Assembly: GCA_025353725.1 (NCBI GenBank)
Contig: JANXOF010000092.1
Span: 1 to 64,000, forward strand
Origin: Polyangiaceae bacterium
Lineage (GTDB): Bacteria > Myxococcota_A > Polyangia > Polyangiales > Polyangiaceae
Length of the DNA: 64,000 nt
Direction of reading: 5' to 3'
Below, one piece after another: positions 18,848-29,919 of the stretch; positions within the stretch are counted from its first letter, which is position 1, and each line of letters opens with the position of its first letter. The notes below the pieces were generated by a model that was not told the origin of the DNA, made no database searches, and saw only the letters and a list, made by a program, of their open reading frames with translations. Made by a program: the position numbers and the translations under genes.

Positions 18848-20194
18848 TCAGAATTCGGGGGCTTCGAGGGGGCCTGGGAGAAGCCAAGACTTCGGACCGA
18901 GGCTCTCCTGAACGGCGGCGAGATCAAGGGTCGGGGCAATGAAGGATTTCGACCGCCGGCCGTTTAGCGCGACCTGCGCGTCGACGTGCACTTCGACGCG
19001 GCCGAGTCCGCGACGCGCGTAGTCTTTTGCTACGATGTGTGCCAGCTCGAGGATCATGTCGGGCTGTGTCGATGCCATTTTAACTTGGTACGGAGTGAGG
19101 TAGGCGCCGAGATCGATAAGCGACGACGCGTGGGTCGCCGGGTCCGTCACGCTCATTTCCAGCGCGCCGTTTTTTTCGATAAGCATCACGTTCCAGGCGA
19201 AGCGAAAGCCTTGCTCGGTCCAAAGAACGTCGCCCGGATAAAGCCAATGTCGAAGCGGCGTTAGCAATTGAACCACGATATACGCCAACGCGAGCCCTAA
19301 GCCCCAGCAGGGAAGCGGTTTCGAGTCCGTCTCGCTCAAGGGCGACGGCCGTGAAGGTGACAGGAAACGAAGGCGCTCGAGAAGCGCGCGCGGCCAAGAC
19401 GGGTCGAAGAAGATGATCGCCAGACCGGACATGATCCACGGAAACATTCCGAGCTGAAAGAGCCGCCCCGTCACCACATGAAACGCGACGAGCGCGACGT
19501 AAGCGAACGAACGCGAGCGCGACCAAAGTAGCCACCCAACAATGGTCAGATCGAAGGCGGCACCCGCCCAGCTAAACGCGTACGCAAACCACTTTTCGTG
19601 AAACCAACGGCCGATCCCGGGGAAATCAGAATTCGCACTAAGCCATATTGTCAGCGGCTGAGCGTGGCAAATCCAATCGCTCTTGAGCTTCGCGACGCCA
19701 CCGAAGAAGTAAACGCATCCGACTTGAAAGCGGACGATCCAAAGGCACCACGAGGGCACGGACGCGATGCGCGCGTGCTTCACACGCTCGTGGTCGAGCG
19801 GCAAAAAAGCCATCACGAGACTTACGCAAGTTACGAGATAATAATGATTAAGGTAGTTGGTTTTATCGATAAAGTGAGCGTACGTAAAGAGGAGCCCGAA
19901 CAGGATGACGCTCGCGCGGTAGCGGTAGCCTAAGGCGACAGACATGGCCGTAAGAGTCATCAATGCGTAGTGCACGTACATGCCCGGGAATGGCCACGGG
20001 CGTACCCACTCGAATCCCCAGTAGTGAAAAAAGTGACGCGGGACGTCGTACTCGTCGTGCAGAAAGCCCTTGGCCACGAACCTTACGCTCGCGGCCACCA
20101 TCAGAAGTCCGAACCCGATTCGGAAGGCTATGAGCGAGGCAACGTCGACGGGTTTGCGCAGCGCGAGGCTAAGCGCCTTCAGGACCCCGACCAC
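18848..20194 (-). CDS. HTTM / vitamin K-dependent gamma-carboxylase-like membrane protein
   Basis: A 448-residue membrane protein with several helices in the first 290 residues (the HTTM domain) and a soluble C-terminal domain (about 325-440). It aligns by eye with human GGCX: KTNYLNHYY carries His117 where GGCX has His160, and YFFGGVAKLKSDW carries Lys169 where GGCX has catalytic Lys218. The C-terminal YLTPYQVKMASTQPDMI, then VEVHVDAQVALNGRR, also match the carboxylase family. Relatives carboxylate glutamates or only epoxidise vitamin K; the bacterial substrate is unknown. Its start overlaps the TonB-receptor gene by 16 bases, making it the last gene of a Fur-box-preceded iron operon. Confidence 0.85.
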   Translation of the reverse strand: MVGVLKALSLALRKPVDVASLIAFRIGFGLLMVAASVRFVAKGFLHDEYDVPRHFFHYWGFEWVRPWPFPGMYVHYALMTLTAMSVALGYRYRASVILFGLLFTYAHFIDKTNYLNHYYLVTCVSLVMAFLPLDHERVKHARIASVPSWCLWIVRFQVGCVYFFGGVAKLKSDWICHAQPLTIWLSANSDFPGIGRWFHEKWFAYAFSWAGAAFDLTIVGWLLWSRSRSFAYVALVAFHVVTGRLFQLGMFPWIMSGLAIIFFDPSWPRALLERLRFLSPSRPSPLSETDSKPLPCWGLGLALAYIVVQLLTPLRHWLYPGDVLWTEQGFRFAWNVMLIEKNGALEMSVTDPATHASSLIDLGAYLTPYQVKMASTQPDMILELAHIVAKDYARRGLGRVEVHVDAQVALNGRRSKSFIAPTLDLAAVQESLGPKSWLLPGPLEAPEF

Positions 20195-22347
20195 TTAATC
20201 CCTGCTCCGATTTGTCGGAACCCCGACGTAAAGATCCCGTTCGGTAGCCTTCCCGAGAGATACACTTCGTCAAGTGCGTTCTTTACAGTGAAGTGGAACG
20301 AGAGCCCCGTGGGTGCGTGCTTGTACCGCACCCCAAGGTCCAGAACGCCGTAACCAGCGATGAGTCCGGAGCGGCCCGAGACATCGGGGTCGACGGTGTT
20401 TGATTCGTCAGCGAATTGTGCGCTCACGTGACTGTACGAGGCTTGAGCCCCAAAGCCACTCGCGTGTTCGGCATCGAGCGTGGCAGTCACCGCGTGGCTG
20501 GGCGAGTACGGCACGAAGTTGCCCTCGTAGGCCCCGCCTGCAAACGTCGAGCGAACATACGTGTATTGAGCAGACACATCAACGTCGACTGGAACGGAAA
20601 GCGCGCGCGGCAGATGAGCGAGCGCCGTCACCTCCGCGCCGATATGCCGAGTCTTTCCGCCATTTTTGAACTCTGCGGACGATCCGCTGAGCGTATTGTT
20701 CGAGACGAGCTGGTTGTCGAACGCGATGACGAAGCCCGTGGCTTCGAGACGTACCGCACGCAGCGGCCTCGCGCGGGCGCCGATTTCGTAGTTCATGCTT
20801 CGCTCCGCAGAGAGCCCCGTGTCTTGTCCCGTGGGAGTAATCGACTGACTCACACGCGGCGGGGAATAACCACTATGAATTCCCCAAAAGATATTCAGCG
20901 CGGGCTTGCCGGCGGCGAAGCCAAGCCCAGGCATTAACCCCGTGGACGCCGAACGGCCTTGCAGGTCGACATCTCTCGGCACGCCACGCAGCCCATCGTT
21001 TGCGGCGGCGTCGACATTCGAAGAACTTGCGGTGAACACGCGGCGGGCATGGCGCCGAGCATACGCGCGCTCCAGTCGCATGCCGGGCGTGACCAAGAGC
21101 TTACCCCCGAAGGAAATTCGGTCTTGGACGTAGCCGGCGAGACCCAAAATCGAGGTCGTGTCATCGGAGAGGAGGTCGCCCGCCTCGGCATCGGGGCGTG
21201 CACCTCGACTCAACGTGCGCCGAGCCACGTCCGCGATGGCGCGCGCACCGACCACGAGGCGATGGTCGACGCTGCCCGTTGCGAAACGATGTTCAACTTG
21301 CGGTTCGACGCCTGCCACCTGATAGCCTCGGTCTCGAAGCGCGCGCGTCGGCCGGAAGTAAATAGCCGAACCCACAACGCCTTCCGTGCCGACCACGCGT
21401 TCGTAGTCCGCGCCCTCAGCGCGATCCCGATCGAAGTCTTGCTGGTATATCTTTAGATCGAGCAGCGTCCCGAAAAGGGTCGACCGCAGCGTCGTGTTCG
21501 CCCCAAGCCGCTGCTCGTGGCGAAGCGATACCTCATAACGCCGAATGCCAAAGACATCGCTCGGAGCAATCGAATCCCTACGCGGGTCGGACTGAAACAT
21601 GCCTTGCGTGAGGCCTACGTACGTCGTGTGTGAGCTCTCGTCGTAGACCGTGAGCTTCGCGGTCGCTTCTCCGTCTCGACCGGTCGGAAAGGTGACCTTT
21701 GCCATAAGGTCCGTCGCGTCAAAGGGCATGGCGCGAAACCCGTCGCCCTGCTTGTGCGAAACCTGCACTAGGTAGCGAACGTCGCCTACTGCGTTTCCGT
21801 AGCGGGCAAGTCCTCGGGCGTACGCCCGCTGCCCGTAGTCCGCCTCGACCGACCACGCCTCGCGCGCCGGCGGCGCCCACGTGTACAGGTTTACGACGCC
21901 GCCGACGGTTTGCGGACCGAACAGGACCATCTCATGGCCCTTGACCAAATCCACACGTTCGACGCGCTCGATGGGCGTCGAATAATACAATTCGGGTTCA
22001 CCGTACGGACTCACGACGACCGGTACTCCGTCCTCCTGGACAAGGACGAGTCGGCCGCGCGACGGGTTGAGCCCGCGAACGCCAAGATTTAGCCGCAATC
22101 CCATTCCGTCTTCCTGGCGAACGTTCAGACCGGGGACGCGGCGAAACACTTCCGTCAAACTAAGTGGCTGCGCGCGCGCAATCTCGGTTCGTGAGACTTG
22201 CGACCCAGAGCCGGAACTCCTCTCGAGATTTTCAGCGGATGTACCGCGAACGTTGACGTCGTCATCGGCGCGCGAAGGCAAGGGTGTCGTAAGCGCAAGG
22301 CCCGCGACGACGAACGAAACGATGCGCCGAGCGGACTCAGTCGCCAT
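20179..22347 (-). CDS. TonB-dependent receptor, FecA-like
   Basis: A 722-residue outer-membrane receptor. After a signal peptide ending near PSRA, a TonB-box-like DDVNVRG leads into the plug domain (about 45-165), with the typical PLSLTEVFRRVPGLNVRQEDG start, GLRLNLGVRGLNPSRG, VSPYGEPELYYSTPIERVERVDLVKG and FGPQTVGGVVNLYT. A 22-strand barrel follows. Features resemble ferric-citrate/siderophore receptors such as FecA, but the ligand cannot be read from sequence. The 5' end overlaps the second imelysin gene by 11 bases and the 3' end overlaps the HTTM gene, so it is firmly part of the iron operon. Confidence 0.93.
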   Translation of the reverse strand: MATESARRIVSFVVAGLALTTPLPSRADDDVNVRGTSAENLERSSGSGSQVSRTEIARAQPLSLTEVFRRVPGLNVRQEDGMGLRLNLGVRGLNPSRGRLVLVQEDGVPVVVSPYGEPELYYSTPIERVERVDLVKGHEMVLFGPQTVGGVVNLYTWAPPAREAWSVEADYGQRAYARGLARYGNAVGDVRYLVQVSHKQGDGFRAMPFDATDLMAKVTFPTGRDGEATAKLTVYDESSHTTYVGLTQGMFQSDPRRDSIAPSDVFGIRRYEVSLRHEQRLGANTTLRSTLFGTLLDLKIYQQDFDRDRAEGADYERVVGTEGVVGSAIYFRPTRALRDRGYQVAGVEPQVEHRFATGSVDHRLVVGARAIADVARRTLSRGARPDAEAGDLLSDDTTSILGLAGYVQDRISFGGKLLVTPGMRLERAYARRHARRVFTASSSNVDAAANDGLRGVPRDVDLQGRSASTGLMPGLGFAAGKPALNIFWGIHSGYSPPRVSQSITPTGQDTGLSAERSMNYEIGARARPLRAVRLEATGFVIAFDNQLVSNNTLSGSSAEFKNGGKTRHIGAEVTALAHLPRALSVPVDVDVSAQYTYVRSTFAGGAYEGNFVPYSPSHAVTATLDAEHASGFGAQASYSHVSAQFADESNTVDPDVSGRSGLIAGYGVLDLGVRYKHAPTGLSFHFTVKNALDEVYLSGRLPNGIFTSGFRQIGAGIKWSGS

Positions 22348-23512
22348 CGCTATCGTTGAACGCCAACGTTGTAGCCAGGGCCGTTGCCACCTCGGTCGAA
22401 AGGAGATTCTTCAACGTTCGTGCCGCCTGATAAGCATTCTCAACAGCCGGTCGCTGAGAGGTAATTGCGGTACGAAACGGCGGAGGAATAGCGGCAACTT
22501 TGCGGAGCACGTCTTCCATCGCCGCAAGAACGCGAGCGTCGAGGGACGGATTTTTAGCGCGCACGAGATCGCTAAGTCCTTTTCCGCCAGCGCCTGCGTA
22601 CATCACTCGGACGCCGTCGAGGGTGCTTACCATGTCGACAAGTGAGTTATCGCTGCGCGCGCTCTCTTCGTCCGCCGGGCGTGGTTCGCCGCCGCTCTTC
22701 GTCCCGTACGGCTTTCCTAGCTTCGTGCCCGTCACGAGATCCGTCGCAAAAATGACGCTATTGACGAGCTGATCGATCGCAGATTTGCCTGACGGAAAGA
22801 GCGCCGAGCCTGATCCGGCTTCGGTTAGCTCTCGCGCGAAGTTACCGCCCGTCGGTTCCCACGCGGTCGCGAGCTCCGAGGTCTTGGCTTGCACGAGGGC
22901 CGCGACAATGCCGGCGTAACGTCGTCGCCTATCCGCATGCGGCGCCGAAACAAACCTTGTCAGCACCGCGGCGTCGCCCGCTGCGCTATCGAAAAAGAGC
23001 GCCTCGAGCGCCATAAACCCTTTCGCGTTCGCCCCAAGCGCATCGACGGTGGACGCGTCAATGGTCTCGACGCCGCCGACAAACGCTTCGATGCCCTCAA
23101 GTCGCGCAGGCCAGAAATCAATGGCGCTCGTGATATTTTTGGTCTTTACCGGCCCGAAACGGAATGCCTCGGTCGCATGCCAGGCCTTTCGTGACGAGCG
23201 CCAAGCGTTTTGCGCGCCAAGCAGCGTCTGCGCCGACGGCGTCGCCGCAAACGCGTTCGTCTTGGCGACGAGTTCGCCCGCCGCCGCATCCGCCAAGCGA
23301 TAGGCAGGCAGGATGACGCTGCCCGTCACATCAGCAAGGACAGGCTTTGCGTCCGACGAGGAACTTGCGGTGCCGTCGCTACAACTCCCGAGAAGCGGAG
23401 TGAGCGAAGCGAGTGCTGTCGCGCAAGCGAACACAACGAAAGACGCCTTCGCTCGTGAAATGGACAGCATGCTTGGCACCGGGCGGCGTGGTTGCATTTG
23501 ATGAGTCCTCAT
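22337..23512 (-). CDS. Imelysin-family lipoprotein lacking the motif histidine
   Basis: A 391-residue imelysin (IrpA/insulin-cleaving membrane peptidase-like) protein. MLSISRAKASFVVFACATAL ends in LLGSC, a lipobox with cysteine 44 from the first ATG; the start at codon 15 would also work. The body has the paired helical bundles of the family (LGAQNAWRSSRKAWHATEAF, then VDALGANAKGFMALEALFF). The family GxHxxE motif reads G165-F-M-A-L-E170: Met replaces His. The first ATG overlaps the di-haem oxidoreductase stop as ATGA. Such proteins sit in the periplasm or on the outer membrane and are thought to bind iron or haem; this copy may be structural. Confidence 0.86.
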   Translation of the reverse strand: MRTHQMQPRRPVPSMLSISRAKASFVVFACATALASLTPLLGSCSDGTASSSSDAKPVLADVTGSVILPAYRLADAAAGELVAKTNAFAATPSAQTLLGAQNAWRSSRKAWHATEAFRFGPVKTKNITSAIDFWPARLEGIEAFVGGVETIDASTVDALGANAKGFMALEALFFDSAAGDAAVLTRFVSAPHADRRRRYAGIVAALVQAKTSELATAWEPTGGNFARELTEAGSGSALFPSGKSAIDQLVNSVIFATDLVTGTKLGKPYGTKSGGEPRPADEESARSDNSLVDMVSTLDGVRVMYAGAGGKGLSDLVRAKNPSLDARVLAAMEDVLRKVAAIPPPFRTAITSQRPAVENAYQAARTLKNLLSTEVATALATTLAFNDSDGD

Positions 23513-24996
23513 AGGTCCTTGAGAAACGCGAGAACAGCCGCACGATCCACATTCCCCATCGCGCGAAACGCGTCACGCGACAGAGTGGCCTCGCCACCGT
23601 GCCAGAGGATCGCCTCAGCAAGCCCGCGCGCCCGGCCGTCGTGAAGCAGAAACTCATGCCGATTAACGACTTTTTGGAGACCGATTCCCCACAAAGGCGC
23701 CGTTCGCCACTCCGTTCCGGTCGCCAAAAAATCCGGCCGACCGTCCGCAAGGTCCGGCCCCATATCGTGGAGCAGCAAGTCTGTATAAGGTCGAATAAGT
23801 TGGTTCGATAGCGCGGGAAAGCCTGCGAGCTCCCCAGTCTCAACTTTTGGTAGGTGACACGCCGCACAACCCGCTTCGCCGAAGAGTTGCTCGCCGCGGC
23901 GGACGTCCGCGCGGTTCCAGTCGCGACGCGAAGGCACAGCGAGCGTGGTATTGTAGCGCGTAACGGCGACGAGCTTTTGTTCGGAGAGTTCGGGCGCTCC
24001 GGTTTCTCCTCCAGACCTCGCCGAAGCGCATTCGGCTTGCGCGGCGGGACAATTTTCCGCCGGATTAAGAGCGCTGGTAATCCCGATATCGCCTAAAAAC
24101 GCGCCCGCGACCTGTTGCTCCACCGTTGGTTGATTGGCTTTCCAGCCGAACCGACCCACCGTGCGCCGACCCTCACGTTGATTCCAAACGAAGTTCATGC
24201 GGCCCGAAATGCCGTCGCCGTTGCGATCATCCTCATCGGACAGCGCGCGGAGCGTTTCTTCCGGAATCGCCGCGAGAAGGCCGAGGCCAATAATCGCCTG
24301 CGCCACGCGCGGTGAGGTCATGACGTTGCTTGCGAGGGGGCCGAAGGCGAGGTCCGAAAACGCGTACGACGGCCGACGCAGTGAATACGCTTCACCGTCC
24401 GCGTAGCTTCCTGCGATCTCCTCGTAAGTGACAGCGACGTTGCCTTCGGCTTTCACTCCTAAGATTGCGTTTTGGTTGAACTGCCCACCGTAGTTCGGCT
24501 CACCGAGAGGCCCCCCATGAGGGTCTTCACCCGGCACGCTCAGACGTACAAGCAAACCAACGAACCGTTCGCCTGGCGCTGTAGGCGGCGCGCCGCGGCC
24601 GTCTTTAAAGTGACACGCATCACACGACGTCGCATTGAACGTCGGTCCGAGTCCGTCGTTGCCAGCAATCGATGCGGGCGCACTCACCCAATTACGACGA
24701 AAAAAGTGGTTACCAAGCGAAAAGCTGTTGCTCAGCTCGGTAGTCAAGTTTCGCGCGGGGAACGAGAACGCTTCGCCGGACACGTCGAACACCGTCGTTG
24801 CTCCGCCAAGAAGCTCGCGACCCGCTTCGAGACTTGGCTCAACGTCGGTCTCACCACGCGACGCGCAGGCCGCGGCGGCGGACCCCGAGAGCACGGCTAC
24901 AAGCAAAGGACCAAGGCAACTCGCCGACACACTTTCGCAGATGCGGACGATCGCGCGCCCCTCGTGGTTTGACTTACTTGGCATTGAACGTCTCAT
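23509..24996 (-). CDS. Di-haem oxidoreductase (DHOR/DUF1111 family) lipoprotein
   Basis: A 495-residue periplasmic c-type cytochrome. The hydrophobic segment ends in AAAAC (Cys44), a probable lipobox. Two haem-attachment motifs are present: CDACH (125-129) and CAACH (377-381), within the family segments LGPTFNATSCDACHFKDGRG and RRGEQLFGEAGCAACHLP, and a C-terminal FLLHDGRARGLAEAILWHGGEA block. DHOR proteins are predicted electron-transfer or redox enzymes that nearly always neighbour imelysins, as here on both sides. Both ends overlap its neighbours by ATGA, implying coupled translation. A likely role is redox chemistry on iron brought in by this operon, which is inference. Confidence 0.92.
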   Translation of the reverse strand: MRRSMPSKSNHEGRAIVRICESVSASCLGPLLVAVLSGSAAAACASRGETDVEPSLEAGRELLGGATTVFDVSGEAFSFPARNLTTELSNSFSLGNHFFRRNWVSAPASIAGNDGLGPTFNATSCDACHFKDGRGAPPTAPGERFVGLLVRLSVPGEDPHGGPLGEPNYGGQFNQNAILGVKAEGNVAVTYEEIAGSYADGEAYSLRRPSYAFSDLAFGPLASNVMTSPRVAQAIIGLGLLAAIPEETLRALSDEDDRNGDGISGRMNFVWNQREGRRTVGRFGWKANQPTVEQQVAGAFLGDIGITSALNPAENCPAAQAECASARSGGETGAPELSEQKLVAVTRYNTTLAVPSRRDWNRADVRRGEQLFGEAGCAACHLPKVETGELAGFPALSNQLIRPYTDLLLHDMGPDLADGRPDFLATGTEWRTAPLWGIGLQKVVNRHEFLLHDGRARGLAEAILWHGGEATLSRDAFRAMGNVDRAAVLAFLKDL

Positions 24997-26180
24997 TCGA
25001 CCAGATTGATGGTCACGCCAAGATTCGCAGATACCGCGACAATGTCAGACGTTACGACGGCCCATGCGTCGATAGCGGACTTGATTTTCACGCGACCGTC
25101 GGAATCGTCAGCGCCGAGAATGGCTTGGTCGAACGGTTGCGGAATGCGGCGGGTAGACTCGATGGCCGCGGAGAGGTCTCGCTTGGTCTTGTCATCGAGC
25201 GAGGCGTCGGTCGACCTCACGAGGTCTGAGAGGCTCACCCCAAGAGACGTACTGTATCGCCCGAGATAGACGTTTTCGATGCCAACGCCATTGAAGACAA
25301 GATCTTGGTTCGTCGTGTCACTGAAGCAGGAATGCTCTTCTTCTTGGTCTTTGGTCTGGTACGCGTTGTTCATCCGCTGCTTCGCGAGTTCAGTTCCGGC
25401 GAGGCTGCCGATGCCCTTTAGGATTTTCCCTAGCGCTTCGTCAGCGTCGCCGACGAGCATCTTTGCGCCGAACGTATCTGCCTTTGCGAGTTCCCATGCG
25501 GCCGCGACCTCCGCGAACTGTTCGACCATCAAATCAGCGCAGGCCGCGAGGTATGCGCGGCGACGGGACTGATTTTTCGCCGTTCCGCCATCCACGAAGT
25601 CCGTGAACGGGCGATTGCCCGGGCCGGCTTTATTAAAGTCTTGCCCCCAGAGCAAAAACTCGATCGTGTGCCAGCCGGTAGAAAGGTTTTTTTGTCCGCC
25701 CTTTTCGTTTTCGTCGGCGATCACGGCCTTCGTGATCTGCGGCGCGAAAAAAGTCCCGTCGGCTTTTTTTAGATTGATAAGGCCCGCCTCGGGCGCATCT
25801 ACTGTGTAATCGACGAAATTCTCGTCCATCGGCCAGCCGTTAATCATTCCCTCGTGACCCGTTTCGGCGTTGTCGATGGGGCCGTTGTAAAAGCGAAAGC
25901 CTTCGGTTTGGAGATAGGACGGCCGCGCCGTTACCCAAGCCACCCTTGCCGCGTCGAATCGGGCTTGCGTGGGAAGCGCAACGAACGCGTCGACGGCAGC
26001 CTTGAGGTTTCTCATTTGCATGAGCGCATCGTCGTAGTTCGCGTGCACGAGGGTCGCATACGTCTTCACGACAGCACGTCTCGTCGGTACGACGCCCGGC
26101 GTAGCCACGCTCGTCGACGACGTTCCGCACGCGAGCATCCCGAGTGCCACGACCGAAGCAAAGCGCTGAATCAGCGTCAT
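24993..26180 (-). CDS. Imelysin-family iron-regulated lipoprotein (IrpA-like), first gene of the operon
   Basis: A 395-residue imelysin. MTLIQRFASVVALGMLAC gives a lipobox cysteine at residue 18. The conserved GxHxxE motif is intact in STGWHTIEFLLWGQD (Gly169, His171, Glu174), and the family's N-terminal YDDALMQMRNLKAAVDAF and GFRFYNGPID segments are present. Imelysins are periplasmic or surface helical-bundle proteins tied to iron uptake. It opens the five-gene minus-strand operon; AGAGG five bases before the ATG is a good ribosome binding site, and a Fur-box-like dyad lies 14-34 bases upstream of the start. It overlaps the next gene by ATGA. Confidence 0.92.
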   Translation of the reverse strand: MTLIQRFASVVALGMLACGTSSTSVATPGVVPTRRAVVKTYATLVHANYDDALMQMRNLKAAVDAFVALPTQARFDAARVAWVTARPSYLQTEGFRFYNGPIDNAETGHEGMINGWPMDENFVDYTVDAPEAGLINLKKADGTFFAPQITKAVIADENEKGGQKNLSTGWHTIEFLLWGQDFNKAGPGNRPFTDFVDGGTAKNQSRRRAYLAACADLMVEQFAEVAAAWELAKADTFGAKMLVGDADEALGKILKGIGSLAGTELAKQRMNNAYQTKDQEEEHSCFSDTTNQDLVFNGVGIENVYLGRYSTSLGVSLSDLVRSTDASLDDKTKRDLSAAIESTRRIPQPFDQAILGADDSDGRVKIKSAIDAWAVVTSDIVAVSANLGVTINLVE

Positions 26181-26193
26181 GCCTCTGGTATAA

Positions 26194-26214
26194 TGAAAAC
26201 GAACATCACTTTCA
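26194..26214. promoter_or_regulatory. Putative Fur box between the imelysin operon and a divergent gene
   Basis: A 21-bp dyad with TGAAA/TTTCA outer arms and GA/TC inner pairs. It matches 15 of 21 positions of the classical 7-1-7 Fur consensus. It begins at the last base of a TATAAT on plus (26189-26194) and ends 14 bases before the imelysin start on minus, so Fur binding could block transcription both ways. Fur represses iron-uptake genes when Fe(II) is plentiful, which fits the operon content. Confidence 0.72.
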
Positions 26215-26269: not shown

Positions 26270-26797
26270 ATGGCGCGATTGGCGCAGCGTTACCCTCACT
26301 TCGACTACAGTCCGCGCGTGCTTCACGCCGCGACGCTCCTCGTGCATCTCGTCTCGTTCGCCGCTTACATCGGTGCCGGTTTCGCCCAGCAGCGCTTGAT
26401 GAAGCTCGCGGCCGCGTCTGGCACCCTTCCGAGCGTCCGCGATTCGTTCGAGCGTCTCGCGGCCACGGTGCTCACACGCATCGAGCTCCCTGCCGTCTAC
26501 GGCTCAATCGTGAGCGGCATCGTGTTCGTCACGCAGAGTCCGGCGCTCATGAAGCAAGGCTGGCTCCACGGAAAGCTTACGTGCGTGCTTCTCCTCGCGG
26601 CCCTTAGCCACCTCGAGATGTTCAACGCGCGGGCCATCGTGAAGTTGCGCGCAGGCGCCGATGGCGCGGAGGTCGACGTAGAAATTGCCGCGAGGATGAA
26701 AAGTCACGCGTTGCTCGGCGCGATAGGGACCACGCTCGTGGTGATTCTTCTCGCCTTCGTAACATTTGTACGCTTGGGCGCATTCGCAACTGGGTAG
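26270..26797 (+). CDS. Small four-helix membrane protein, HemJ/CopD-like
   Basis: A 175-residue protein with about four membrane helices (near 16-36, 65-88, 94-115 and 143-166). The helix WLHGKLTCVLLLAALSHLEMF resembles the WLHxKLxLVLLLxxxH segment of HemJ protoporphyrinogen oxidase and related CopD-type proteins, and an early LHAATLLVHLVSFA helix carries further histidines that could bind haem or metal. HemJ would link to haem synthesis, which would fit iron control, but the resemblance is partial. Start at 26270 (MARLAQRYPHFDYSP) is preferred because upstream sequence contains the Fur box and promoter. AGGA directly precedes the ATG, rather close for a ribosome binding site. Confidence 0.6.
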   Translation: MARLAQRYPHFDYSPRVLHAATLLVHLVSFAAYIGAGFAQQRLMKLAAASGTLPSVRDSFERLAATVLTRIELPAVYGSIVSGIVFVTQSPALMKQGWLHGKLTCVLLLAALSHLEMFNARAIVKLRAGADGAEVDVEIAARMKSHALLGAIGTTLVVILLAFVTFVRLGAFATG

Positions 26798-28071: not shown

Positions 28072-29919
28072 ATGCAGAGCGGCGTCAGCTTGATAGGCGT
28101 AGGAACATTCGTAGTCTCCATGTGCGCGCTCGGACTCGCATGTACGTCGCTGAGCGAGTCGCCTTCAAGAGAATTGAACGCGGCATTCGAGGATGCGGGC
28201 GGCCCCATCCTCCAGCCGACCCCGTCCGTTGCATTGTGCACTGACAACCGCCCTACGTTCGCCTACCCGCCCGAAGCGCGCGCGATAGCCCTTGGCGAGA
28301 CACTTCCCAACCTCTCGTTCGAGGGCGAACACGGCAACGTCGCTCTCAAAGAGTACTTTGAGCCGTGCGCGCCGCGGTCGCGACTCCTCGTGATCCGAAC
28401 GAGTGCGCTCTGGTGTGGGACGTGCGGGTGGCATGCCGCGCATACGAACGCGTGGCTCGGTGACGTGGCCCTTGCCGAACGCATCACGCTCCTCGACTTG
28501 GTCGTGGCCGACGAAGACAACCTGCCGGCCACCATGCCCGCCCTTCTGCGCTTTCGGAAAACACTTAGCGCAGTCGGTAAGCTCGCGATCGACCCGAGTT
28601 TTACGTTTGCAAGCGTATCCGCCGCGCACGTTCCGCTTCCTGCTTACGTCATCGTCGATACGAAGACGATGCGTGTCATCACCACGGATACAAACCCGAG
28701 TGCGGAGGCTCTCCGCGCGAAGTTGGGTATCGCCCTCGCTCAGCTCGACGGCCATGCGCGCCCAGACTTTCCTGAAGCGAAAACGACCGACGGGTTCACG
28801 GCCAACGAGCTGGATCTCATCCGCGATATGGGACTGCCTGGCGCCCCACCCGCCGACCCAACGAATGCCTATGCGGACGTTCCTGCCGCGGCGGCCCTCG
28901 GGAAGAAGCTCTTTTTCGACGCCGCTCTTTCGCCTTCTGGCCGCATTTCTTGCGCCACGTGCCACGACGCGCGAAAAGGCCTCTCCGACGGGCTACCACA
29001 ATCGGAAGGCATAGCTACGACCGACCGAAATTCGCCGGGCATTGCCCTCGCCTCGCACGCGCGATGGCAATTTTGGGACGGCCGTGCGGACACGCTTTGG
29101 ATGCAGGCGCTCGGACCCTTCGAGAATACGAAGGAGTTTGCTTCGAGCAGGCTCTTCGTCGCCCACGAAATCCAGCGACGCTACGCGACAGAGTACAGCG
29201 CCGTCTTCGCGCGTTATCCGATGCCCGACATGTCCGACGCGGCACGCTTTCCGCCTTCGGGGACACCCGGATCCCCCTCATGGGACGCGATGCGCGCGGA
29301 GGACCGAGCCGCCGTCACCCGCGTGTTCGTGGACGTCGGCAAAGCCATTGCCGCGTTCGAACGCACCTTTCGCGCTACGCCCAATGCCCTTGATAAGTAC
29401 GCGGGCGGAGATCACAGCGCGTTTACGCCTGAGCAGAAGCGCGGACTGAAAGTGTTTCTCACGACCGGATGCGTACAATGCCACCACGGACCGAGACTCA
29501 CGGACGATGCCTTTCATGTCCTTCGCTTTCCTACAGGAGCGCGTGGTGGAATCGCGGACCTCGGGCGAGCGGCAGGCGTTCCGCTTCTGCTGGCCTCGGA
29601 GTTCACCGCGGGCAAGGAGTGGAGCGACGCGCCGGCCTCGGCCCGATCGTTCTTAGGGATGGAATTGCCCGTGCAGACTACGGTGGGCGCATTCAAAACC
29701 CCTACGCTGCGAGCACTCCCAGCCTCAGGGCCGTACGGACACGGCGGCACGTTCTTTACGCTCGCGGACGTCACGAAACACTACGGCGGGCGGGGTTTGC
29801 GCGAGAACGACACGCGTGCCGTGGGCGCTACCGAGGCATGGGTTCCAGAATTCGATGCCAATGCCGCGCGCGAGCTCGTCCCATTTCTCGAAACGCTCAC
29901 TGGCGAGGTGGAAGACTGA
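28072..29919 (+). CDS. Redoxin-MauG fusion: thioredoxin-like domain joined to di-haem cytochrome c peroxidase
   Basis: A 615-residue lipoprotein (GLAC lipobox, Cys24) with two enzyme-like domains. Residues 70-235 form a redoxin/thioredoxin fold with an active-site-like WCGTC (Cys115, Cys118). Residues 255-610 form a MauG/CcpA-type di-haem peroxidase with haem motifs CATCH (294-298) and CVQCH (467-471), the LGKKLFFDAALSPSGRISC start and the RNSPGIALASHARWQFWDGRADTL block. The usual role is peroxide reduction or oxidative maturation of a partner in the periplasm. Fusion to a thiol-redox domain is uncommon. It is followed 61 bases on by a small cytochrome-like gene, then a pentahaem gene. Confidence 0.9.
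   Translation: MQSGVSLIGVGTFVVSMCALGLACTSLSESPSRELNAAFEDAGGPILQPTPSVALCTDNRPTFAYPPEARAIALGETLPNLSFEGEHGNVALKEYFEPCAPRSRLLVIRTSALWCGTCGWHAAHTNAWLGDVALAERITLLDLVVADEDNLPATMPALLRFRKTLSAVGKLAIDPSFTFASVSAAHVPLPAYVIVDTKTMRVITTDTNPSAEALRAKLGIALAQLDGHARPDFPEAKTTDGFTANELDLIRDMGLPGAPPADPTNAYADVPAAAALGKKLFFDAALSPSGRISCATCHDARKGLSDGLPQSEGIATTDRNSPGIALASHARWQFWDGRADTLWMQALGPFENTKEFASSRLFVAHEIQRRYATEYSAVFARYPMPDMSDAARFPPSGTPGSPSWDAMRAEDRAAVTRVFVDVGKAIAAFERTFRATPNALDKYAGGDHSAFTPEQKRGLKVFLTTGCVQCHHGPRLTDDAFHVLRFPTGARGGIADLGRAAGVPLLLASEFTAGKEWSDAPASARSFLGMELPVQTTVGAFKTPTLRALPASGPYGHGGTFFTLADVTKHYGGRGLRENDTRAVGATEAWVPEFDANAARELVPFLETLTGEVED

Follow-up and report, generated by a model that had tools for sequence, protein, structure and literature searches.

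Operons that bring imelysins together with a di-haem oxidoreductase (DHOR) are described as Fur-regulated in Pseudomonas and Vibrio (PMC3143127), and the imelysin-DHOR-LruB operon of Leptospira is described as responding to iron limitation and peroxide (PMC7567364, PMC13066512). In Riemerella, the run RAYM_09779-09794 comprises a TonB receptor, a vitamin-K carboxylase homologue, an imelysin, and a hypothetical gene; it is reported as iron- and Fur-responsive and up-regulated in iron restriction, and in the accessible text of that paper the carboxylase appears once, in a row of Table 4, the receptor being the only product discussed (PMC5609570). For the human vitamin-K-dependent carboxylase GGCX, the residue roles in the vitamin-K pocket and in the contacts with the Glu peptide are taken from the account in PMC12589487, in which N159 and H160 contact the Glu side chain. 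The present work concerns an operon of five minus-strand genes at positions 18848-26180 of a 64,000-nucleotide stretch from a Polyangiaceae bacterium (assembly GCA_025353725.1, contig JANXOF010000092.1, positions 1 to 64,000), hereafter the window. These genes are named IMEL1 (imelysin 1), DHOR, IMEL2 (imelysin 2), TBDR (TonB receptor), and VKGC (carboxylase homologue). What is new with respect to the known imelysin-DHOR-imelysin operons is that a vitamin-K carboxylase homologue takes the place of DUF1513.

Sequence comparison and fold prediction together identify VKGC (18848..20194, minus strand, GTG start) as a true homologue of GGCX. Its Pfam domains are PF05090 (the HTTM membrane domain, E 5e-74) and PF22777 (the VKGC lumenal domain, E 4e-44), both far above cut-off. 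A phmmer search of PDB sequences finds human GGCX (residues 9-440, E 1.9e-36), which is also retrieved, at E 7e-82, by a profile built from 52 VKGCs. The AlphaFold2 model (pLDDT 94.0, pTM 0.91) returns GGCX chains as its top 16 matches in a PDB fold search, with a best TM-score of 0.86; superposed on GGCX, it gives Z 31.4 and rmsd 3.0 over 437 residues, the next chain reaching Z 7.6. An earlier note on this DNA had aligned by eye Lys169 with the catalytic base Lys218 of GGCX and His117 with His160, had matched C-terminal segments of both proteins, and had proposed a superposition. The phmmer alignment pairs both residues and places GGCX Q433 and R476 opposite VKGC Q370 and R413, and the superposition is nearly full-length with the sequence alignment in register. 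Because the fold tools returned aligned ranges and not residue pairs, residue equivalence rests on this alignment, by which the Lys169 codon lies at 19688..19690 and those of Asn116-His117, equivalent to GGCX Asn159-His160, at 19844..19849 (both minus strand).

The link between VKGC and imelysins is real. PF22777 matches were compared with imelysin matches within 10 kb in 188 Myxococcota and 148 Bacteroidota genomes. The Myxococcota hold 64 PF22777 matches in 46 genomes, and 45 of these matches (38 of the 46 genomes) have an imelysin within that distance, where chance would give about 0.5 in genomes of 6 Mb; in Bacteroidota, the figures are 31 of 41 matches and 30 of 36 genomes. All linked pairs of both surveys lie on the same strand. 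The control consisted of the listed HTTM matches below 92 bits (94, three of which carry a lumenal match; G174:C183, the second fragment of a linked VKGC, was omitted). None of these 94 had an imelysin within 10 kb, the nearest pair being 10.16 kb apart (G073:C76), as judged against a partial imelysin list, by contig for imelysins not linked to VKGC and by eye for the VKGC-linked ones. When contigs were scanned with the window VKGC, a search limited in reach to close relatives, 18 loci from Myxococcota groups, Bacteroidota genera, Chloroflexi, Microthrixaceae, and Lentisphaerales were obtained, each with an imelysin gene (18/18). The pairing extends to metagenome-assembled genomes of Chloroflexi, Lentisphaerales, and Microthrixaceae (divergent orientation in the last), and it is also found on a Persicobacter plasmid.

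The linked VKGCs also group together in a tree of 85 VKGCs, in which all 68 linked rows (window and two duplicates included) belong to one 70-leaf group. Its two other leaves are L114, truncated where its contig stops, and L143, from a genome in which IMEL1-DHOR-IMEL2 is found at another locus (L160). The 70-leaf node has no support value, and the 73-leaf clade that adds three unlinked VKGCs is supported at 0.999; the remaining 12 unlinked VKGCs fall outside this clade. A separate Bacteroidota group without imelysins (L144-L149) has an upstream gene that clusters with FAD synthetase (Pfam on L144 only).

The partner is a particular imelysin. A locus is called linked when the region fetched for it contained an imelysin, so that the presence of some imelysin is a matter of definition and its type is not; the 101 regions were fetched by choice, and the architecture counts are therefore not those of a random sample. 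Once the duplicates L087 (= L005) and L137 (= L014) are removed, 65 distinct linked loci remain; the gene clusters and the imelysin tree described below still include both. An IMEL2-type imelysin is present in 65/65, mostly directly upstream of VKGC, whose homology starts at most 100 nt from the IMEL2 stop in 57 of 66 same-strand pairs (two duplicates included). At L019, VKGC is divergent and IMEL1 lies nearer than IMEL2. DHOR is found at 27 of the 65 loci, one of which (L129) combines a type B operon, defined below, with IMEL1-DHOR downstream; among the 38 others are L006, which its contig truncates, and L020, where two imelysins but no DHOR were found. Of the association of HTTM genes with imelysin-DHOR pairs put forward by the earlier note, the imelysin half is thus borne out by the surveys, and the DHOR half is not: the pair does not travel with VKGC as a unit, DHOR being missing from 38 of 65 loci that all have IMEL2.

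Two architectures are observed. The first, A, is IMEL1-DHOR-IMEL2-VKGC, sometimes with TBDR; the second, B, is mostly DUF4856-IMEL2-VKGC-TBDR, without DHOR or IMEL1. A DUF4856-type lipoprotein precedes IMEL2 in most B operons (L125:10288-11502 and 25 further loci); Pfam assigned DUF4856 for two examples, and our literature search, from which subscription papers were mostly absent, found no paper on it. The window has TBDR between IMEL2 and VKGC, an order seen in no other A locus compared. Across both architectures, a TonB receptor gene occurs at 42/65 distinct linked loci and was not seen at the other 23, some of which are cut by contig ends. Twenty further imelysin loci have no VKGC in the operon and carry TBDR in 16 cases and DUF4856 in 13; VKGC is therefore optional in architecture B. 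One locus of this set, L177, carries a weak VKGC-profile open reading frame (ORF), at 61 bits. In the midpoint-rooted imelysin tree, IMEL1 forms one clade (support 0.98), IMEL2 does not, and the window IMEL2 lies outside the IMEL1 clade. That tree includes 14 imelysin genes of 13 VKGC-less loci, 13 of which group with IMEL1 and one (L160) with IMEL2.

The fourth position of the A operon has a second occupant. IMEL1-DHOR-IMEL2-DUF1513 is the order on Azospirillum and Roseivivax plasmids, a P. aeruginosa plasmid shows DHOR-IMEL2-DUF1513, and one Myxococcota locus without VKGC reads IMEL1-DHOR-DUF1513-IMEL2. In these loci (L186, L187, L190, L191), DUF1513 adjoins IMEL2 in the place of VKGC. Conversely, phmmer searches of the ORFs of 118 loci with two DUF1513 proteins gave no match at E 1e-5, and the window's own genome has no PF07433 match, so its fourth slot is not DUF1513. 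Since DUF1513 occurs on these Pseudomonadota plasmids and in one Myxococcota locus and was not found in the 118 loci, and since on the Persicobacter plasmid the A order comes complete with VKGC, VKGC and DUF1513 look like alternative occupants of one operon position, albeit in a small sample.

The active site was compared in the 65 distinct linked VKGCs; L117, with a VKGC profile score below 300 bits, was omitted from these counts and from the tree. The positions of GGCX N159, H160, V210, K218, W223, G259, F286, H287, F294, F299, and W399 are identical in 65/65. They include the base and the ring pocket of vitamin K (V210, W223, F286, F294, F299), in which M401 is the residue that changes, to V in 64/65. 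K217 is replaced by A in 59/65, the Y425 position is variable, and the C99-C450 disulphide is absent. Of the Glu-peptide pocket (N158, N159, H160, Y395, R436), only N159 and H160 are kept. Beyond the linked set, among 17 unlinked VKGC paralogues, three have another residue at the H160 position, and 13 have His at that of Tyr395. By alignment and model, then, the chemistry end of the pocket is retained, and VKGC departs from GGCX in its propeptide domain and at the end that grips the peptide. The invariance of H160 and N159 favours a second half-reaction over epoxidation alone, and the altered peptide contacts argue against a GGCX-type Gla (γ-carboxyglutamate) protein as the acceptor.

The operon also bears signs of iron control. 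A scan of the whole window with the E. coli Fur consensus gave five Fur-box-like matches of at least 13/19, three of them overlapping one another upstream of the operon; among these, the palindrome GAAAGTGATGTTCGTTTTC (26195..26213, minus strand, 13/19) lies 14 nt upstream of the IMEL1 start codon. In the Myxococcota set of 41 regions, which excludes 2 of 43 loci whose region ran off the contig and includes a small number from other phyla, the best matches average 12.56; shuffled palindromes average 10.32, and none of 500 attained the observed value. In 24 Bacteroidota regions scored with the Riemerella box, the mean is 15.67 against 12.32, reached by 1/500; each set keeps one duplicate. The Riemerella run itself looks like a B operon. 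Of the tie to iron uptake that the earlier note had inferred, the part that concerns iron regulation is supported by this enrichment together with the iron- and Fur-responsiveness published for that run (PMC5609570). A promoter and terminator scan showed nothing beyond chance.

As for the other operon members, all five ORFs are found as the earlier note had laid them out, each overlapping the next, by 4, 4, 11, and 16 nt. IMEL1 (24993..26180, minus strand; PF09375, E 4.9e-71) is of the ICMP/LruB type, with the GxHxxE motif as GWHTIE, and matches the NF047655 LruB profile in part, below that profile's cut-off. It overlaps by 4 nt the DHOR/DUF1111 gene (23509..24996, minus strand; PF06537, E 2.5e-98), in whose translation two CxxCH motifs are read, and this gene in turn overlaps by 4 nt IMEL2 (22337..23512, minus strand; PF09375, E 2.1e-54), a predicted lipoprotein with the GxxxxE variant. 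The order IMEL1 (GxHxxE), DHOR, IMEL2 (GxxxxE) is thus present. TBDR (20179..22347, minus strand; PF07715 and PF00593), an outer-membrane receptor, shares 11 nt with IMEL2 and 16 nt with VKGC. VKGC is the sole HTTM match of its genome, and the two imelysins are its only imelysin matches. Facing the operon across the Fur-box region is a HemJ-like (UPF0093) membrane protein (26270-26797, plus strand, start picked by eye), whose Pfam score of 33.1 is just under the cut-off of 34.2. Also close to the operon lies a MauG-type di-haem enzyme (28072-29919, plus strand) with an N-terminal stretch that resembles, by eye, a thioredoxin-type redox domain (CGTC).

Taken together, these data lead us to propose, tentatively and at somewhat less than an even chance, a surface module controlled by iron starvation, in which VKGC oxidises menaquinol and modifies a co-exported partner, most likely IMEL2. 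VKGC would be an inner-membrane protein whose lumenal domain and active site face the periplasm, and would convert menaquinol and O2 to the epoxide; the base so formed would then drive the modification of an acidic side chain on the partner. The lipoprotein IMEL2, which no linked locus lacks, is the most likely partner. Carboxylation would give a malonate-like side chain well suited to binding iron and to handing the metal between the TonB receptor, the imelysins, and, where present, DHOR. The GGCX homology and fold, the imelysin linkage, the constancy of IMEL2, the invariant catalytic residues, the Fur boxes, and the Riemerella run speak for this proposal, as do the two PF02621 (VitK2_biosynth) matches of the window's own genome, which also has one VKOR-family match. 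Its most specific form, in which VKGC is a menaquinol-dependent carboxylase that adds the malonate-like ligand to IMEL2, for instance at the C-terminal tail or a nearby acidic residue, with DUF1513 as its equivalent in Pseudomonadota, is unlikely as it stands.

In an alignment of 47 IMEL2 sequences, the only five invariant columns are the start, C44 (the putative lipobox cysteine, codon 23381..23383, minus strand), W218, D389, and D391. The last two belong to the C-terminal Asp-Gly-Asp (codons 22340..22348, minus strand), and IMEL2 ends exactly in D-x-D at 63/65 distinct linked loci (45 DGD, 18 DND), the two others having one or three residues more. The IMEL2 model has a pLDDT of 90.5 and its last block one of 47, the tail being thus predicted as flexible; IMEL1 tails differ. 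With or without VKGC, this tail looks, from alignment and model, like a recognition motif. The DGD and DND types track the VKGC sequence groups, with one clear exception (L097), and lineage therefore explains them well enough. As a tag specific to VKGC, the tail is ruled out by the D-x-D endings in 20/20 VKGC-less operons and by DGD in three Pseudomonadota imelysins 2. The mirror-tree correlation between IMEL2 and VKGC (r 0.82) is confounded by species history and was not used as evidence of contact.

Acceptor residues were sought by comparing rows with and without VKGC for IMEL2 (68, window and two duplicates included, versus 20), DUF4856 (32 versus 12), and TonB receptors (41 versus 15). In Myxococcota subsets, a few acidic positions appear at p 1e-3 or weaker, uncorrected for column number. 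The strongest acidic signal (p 2.6e-6) is a receptor column, that of window Q248, with D or E in 40/41 VKGC-linked receptors and, without VKGC, D in 4/15 and E in none; the window itself has Gln there. The IMEL2 set without VKGC is an imperfect contrast, since eight of its 20 genomes carry a VKGC outside the operon and one of its loci, L177, has the weak VKGC-profile ORF mentioned above.

Several observations weigh against the proposed modification of a partner. Across all loci, no VKGC-specific acidic residue was found in IMEL2 or DUF4856. IMEL2 operons without VKGC exist, and the genomes of the 20 VKGC-less operons lack any VKGC match in 12 cases (the other eight, G024, G029, G048, G107, G117, G120, G125, and G174, have a VKGC elsewhere); the imelysins 2 of these operons keep the D-x-D tail in 20/20, never as DGD. 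Among four plasmid records with VKGC, an imelysin is adjacent in one and about 25 kb away in another. Contacts to the Glu peptide have changed: the N158 position is L or I, that of Y395 is F (22), Y (21), M (19), or others, and that of R436 is Q (26), E (18), M (14), or others. Since the end of the VKGC model (residue 448) aligns at about GGCX 517, inside the propeptide-binding domain, much of that domain is missing. VKOR, tried as a marker of a vitamin-K cycle, occurs in 31/46 VKGC genomes and 132/188 overall, without enrichment. Finally, the Leptospira VKGC reportedly has an altered activity that suggests a role other than protein carboxylation.

These observations bear on four other explanations. 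VKGC may be an epoxidase only, oxidising menaquinol with O2 and forming no Gla, in a redox role such as oxygen or quinone handling at iron entry or the feeding of periplasmic iron or haem chemistry. This is doubtful, though it has a real chance of being correct: it fits the constancy of the base and of most of the vitamin-K pocket beside variable N158, Y395, and R436 and a reduced propeptide domain, as well as the lack of a VKGC-dependent Glu in IMEL2 or DUF4856. It sits poorly, however, with N159 and H160, the Glu-side-chain contacts, which are equally constant in the linked enzymes although H160 varies among the unlinked paralogues, and it would be hard to see why an epoxidase that lacks an acceptor should remain tied to IMEL2.

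Quite unlikely, in our estimation, is a non-catalytic VKGC that serves IMEL2 as a membrane factor for assembly or sorting. The DUF1513 genes beside IMEL2 on the Azospirillum, Roseivivax, and P. aeruginosa plasmids and at the VKGC-less Myxococcota locus, their absence from the phmmer results for the 118 loci, and a flexible D-x-D tail that resembles a recognition tag would all suit a scaffold in that slot. But nothing in a scaffolding role would require invariant K218, H160, N159, and vitamin-K pocket residues, and the tail persists in operons without VKGC.

Improbable, too, is a VKGC whose target is not an operon protein but a cargo of the TonB receptor, be it a small molecule or a short peptide, such as an imported metal carrier. 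The frequency of receptor genes and the acidic column of the VKGC-linked receptors point in this direction; the 23 loci at which no receptor was seen (some of them truncated) and the Gln of the window receptor point away from it, and among the clusters listed the only unlabelled gene that recurs at a fixed place in linked loci is DUF4856. Chance neighbourhood or hitch-hiking without a functional link deserves hardly any weight, since, although IMEL2 operons without VKGC exist and 19/64 and 10/41 VKGC matches lie more than 10 kb from any imelysin match, the linked counts in both phyla, far above expectation in the first, the empty control among the listed weak HTTM matches, and the recurrence in Chloroflexi, Lentisphaerales, Microthrixaceae (divergent), and the Persicobacter plasmid speak against it.

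That VKGC recurs next to one iron-linked lipoprotein across many bacteria only remotely related to each other suggests, for this enzyme family, a bacterial role that can be tested, and indicates where to look, namely in iron-starved cells, at IMEL2 and its neighbours. The system offers a recurrent partner, operons that naturally contain or lack the enzyme, and, in DUF1513, a competitor for the same slot. Were IMEL2 found to be carboxylated, bacteria would have a vitamin-K-type protein carboxylation of their own that serves iron uptake.

Compared to known systems, VKGC shares with human GGCX the HTTM and lumenal domains, the fold over 437 residues, the base Lys218, His160, Asn159, and the aromatic vitamin-K pocket; in contrast, GGCX has a full propeptide-binding domain and arch where VKGC ends near GGCX 517, and its N158, K217, Y395, M401, R436, and C99-C450 disulphide are not conserved in the linked VKGCs. 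A literature search for HTTM or γ-carboxylase proteins with imelysin, TonB, or iron, covering few subscription papers, gave only the table row in PMC5609570. That Riemerella run (RAYM_09779-09794) resembles architecture B in its TonB receptor, VKGC, imelysin, and hypothetical protein on consecutive tags; unlike the window, it has no DHOR or second imelysin as presented in that table (PMC5609570). EfeUOB, as described in PMC3143127, likewise links an imelysin-like domain to a haem peroxidase, but none of the five window operon genes is a permease. The Leptospira LruB operon, described as iron-limitation responsive, has the same three core genes, imelysin-DHOR-imelysin, and differs in that the word "carboxylase" is absent from the main texts of PMC7567364 and PMC13066512. 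The Pseudomonas PA4370-PA4373 type operon, Fur-controlled according to PMC3143127, has in common with the window an imelysin, a DHOR/DUF1111 protein, and a second imelysin with GxxxxE. In three related Pseudomonadota loci, IMEL2 ends in DGD as in the window, whereas the fourth slot holds DUF1513 there and VKGC here, and the window adds a TonB receptor.

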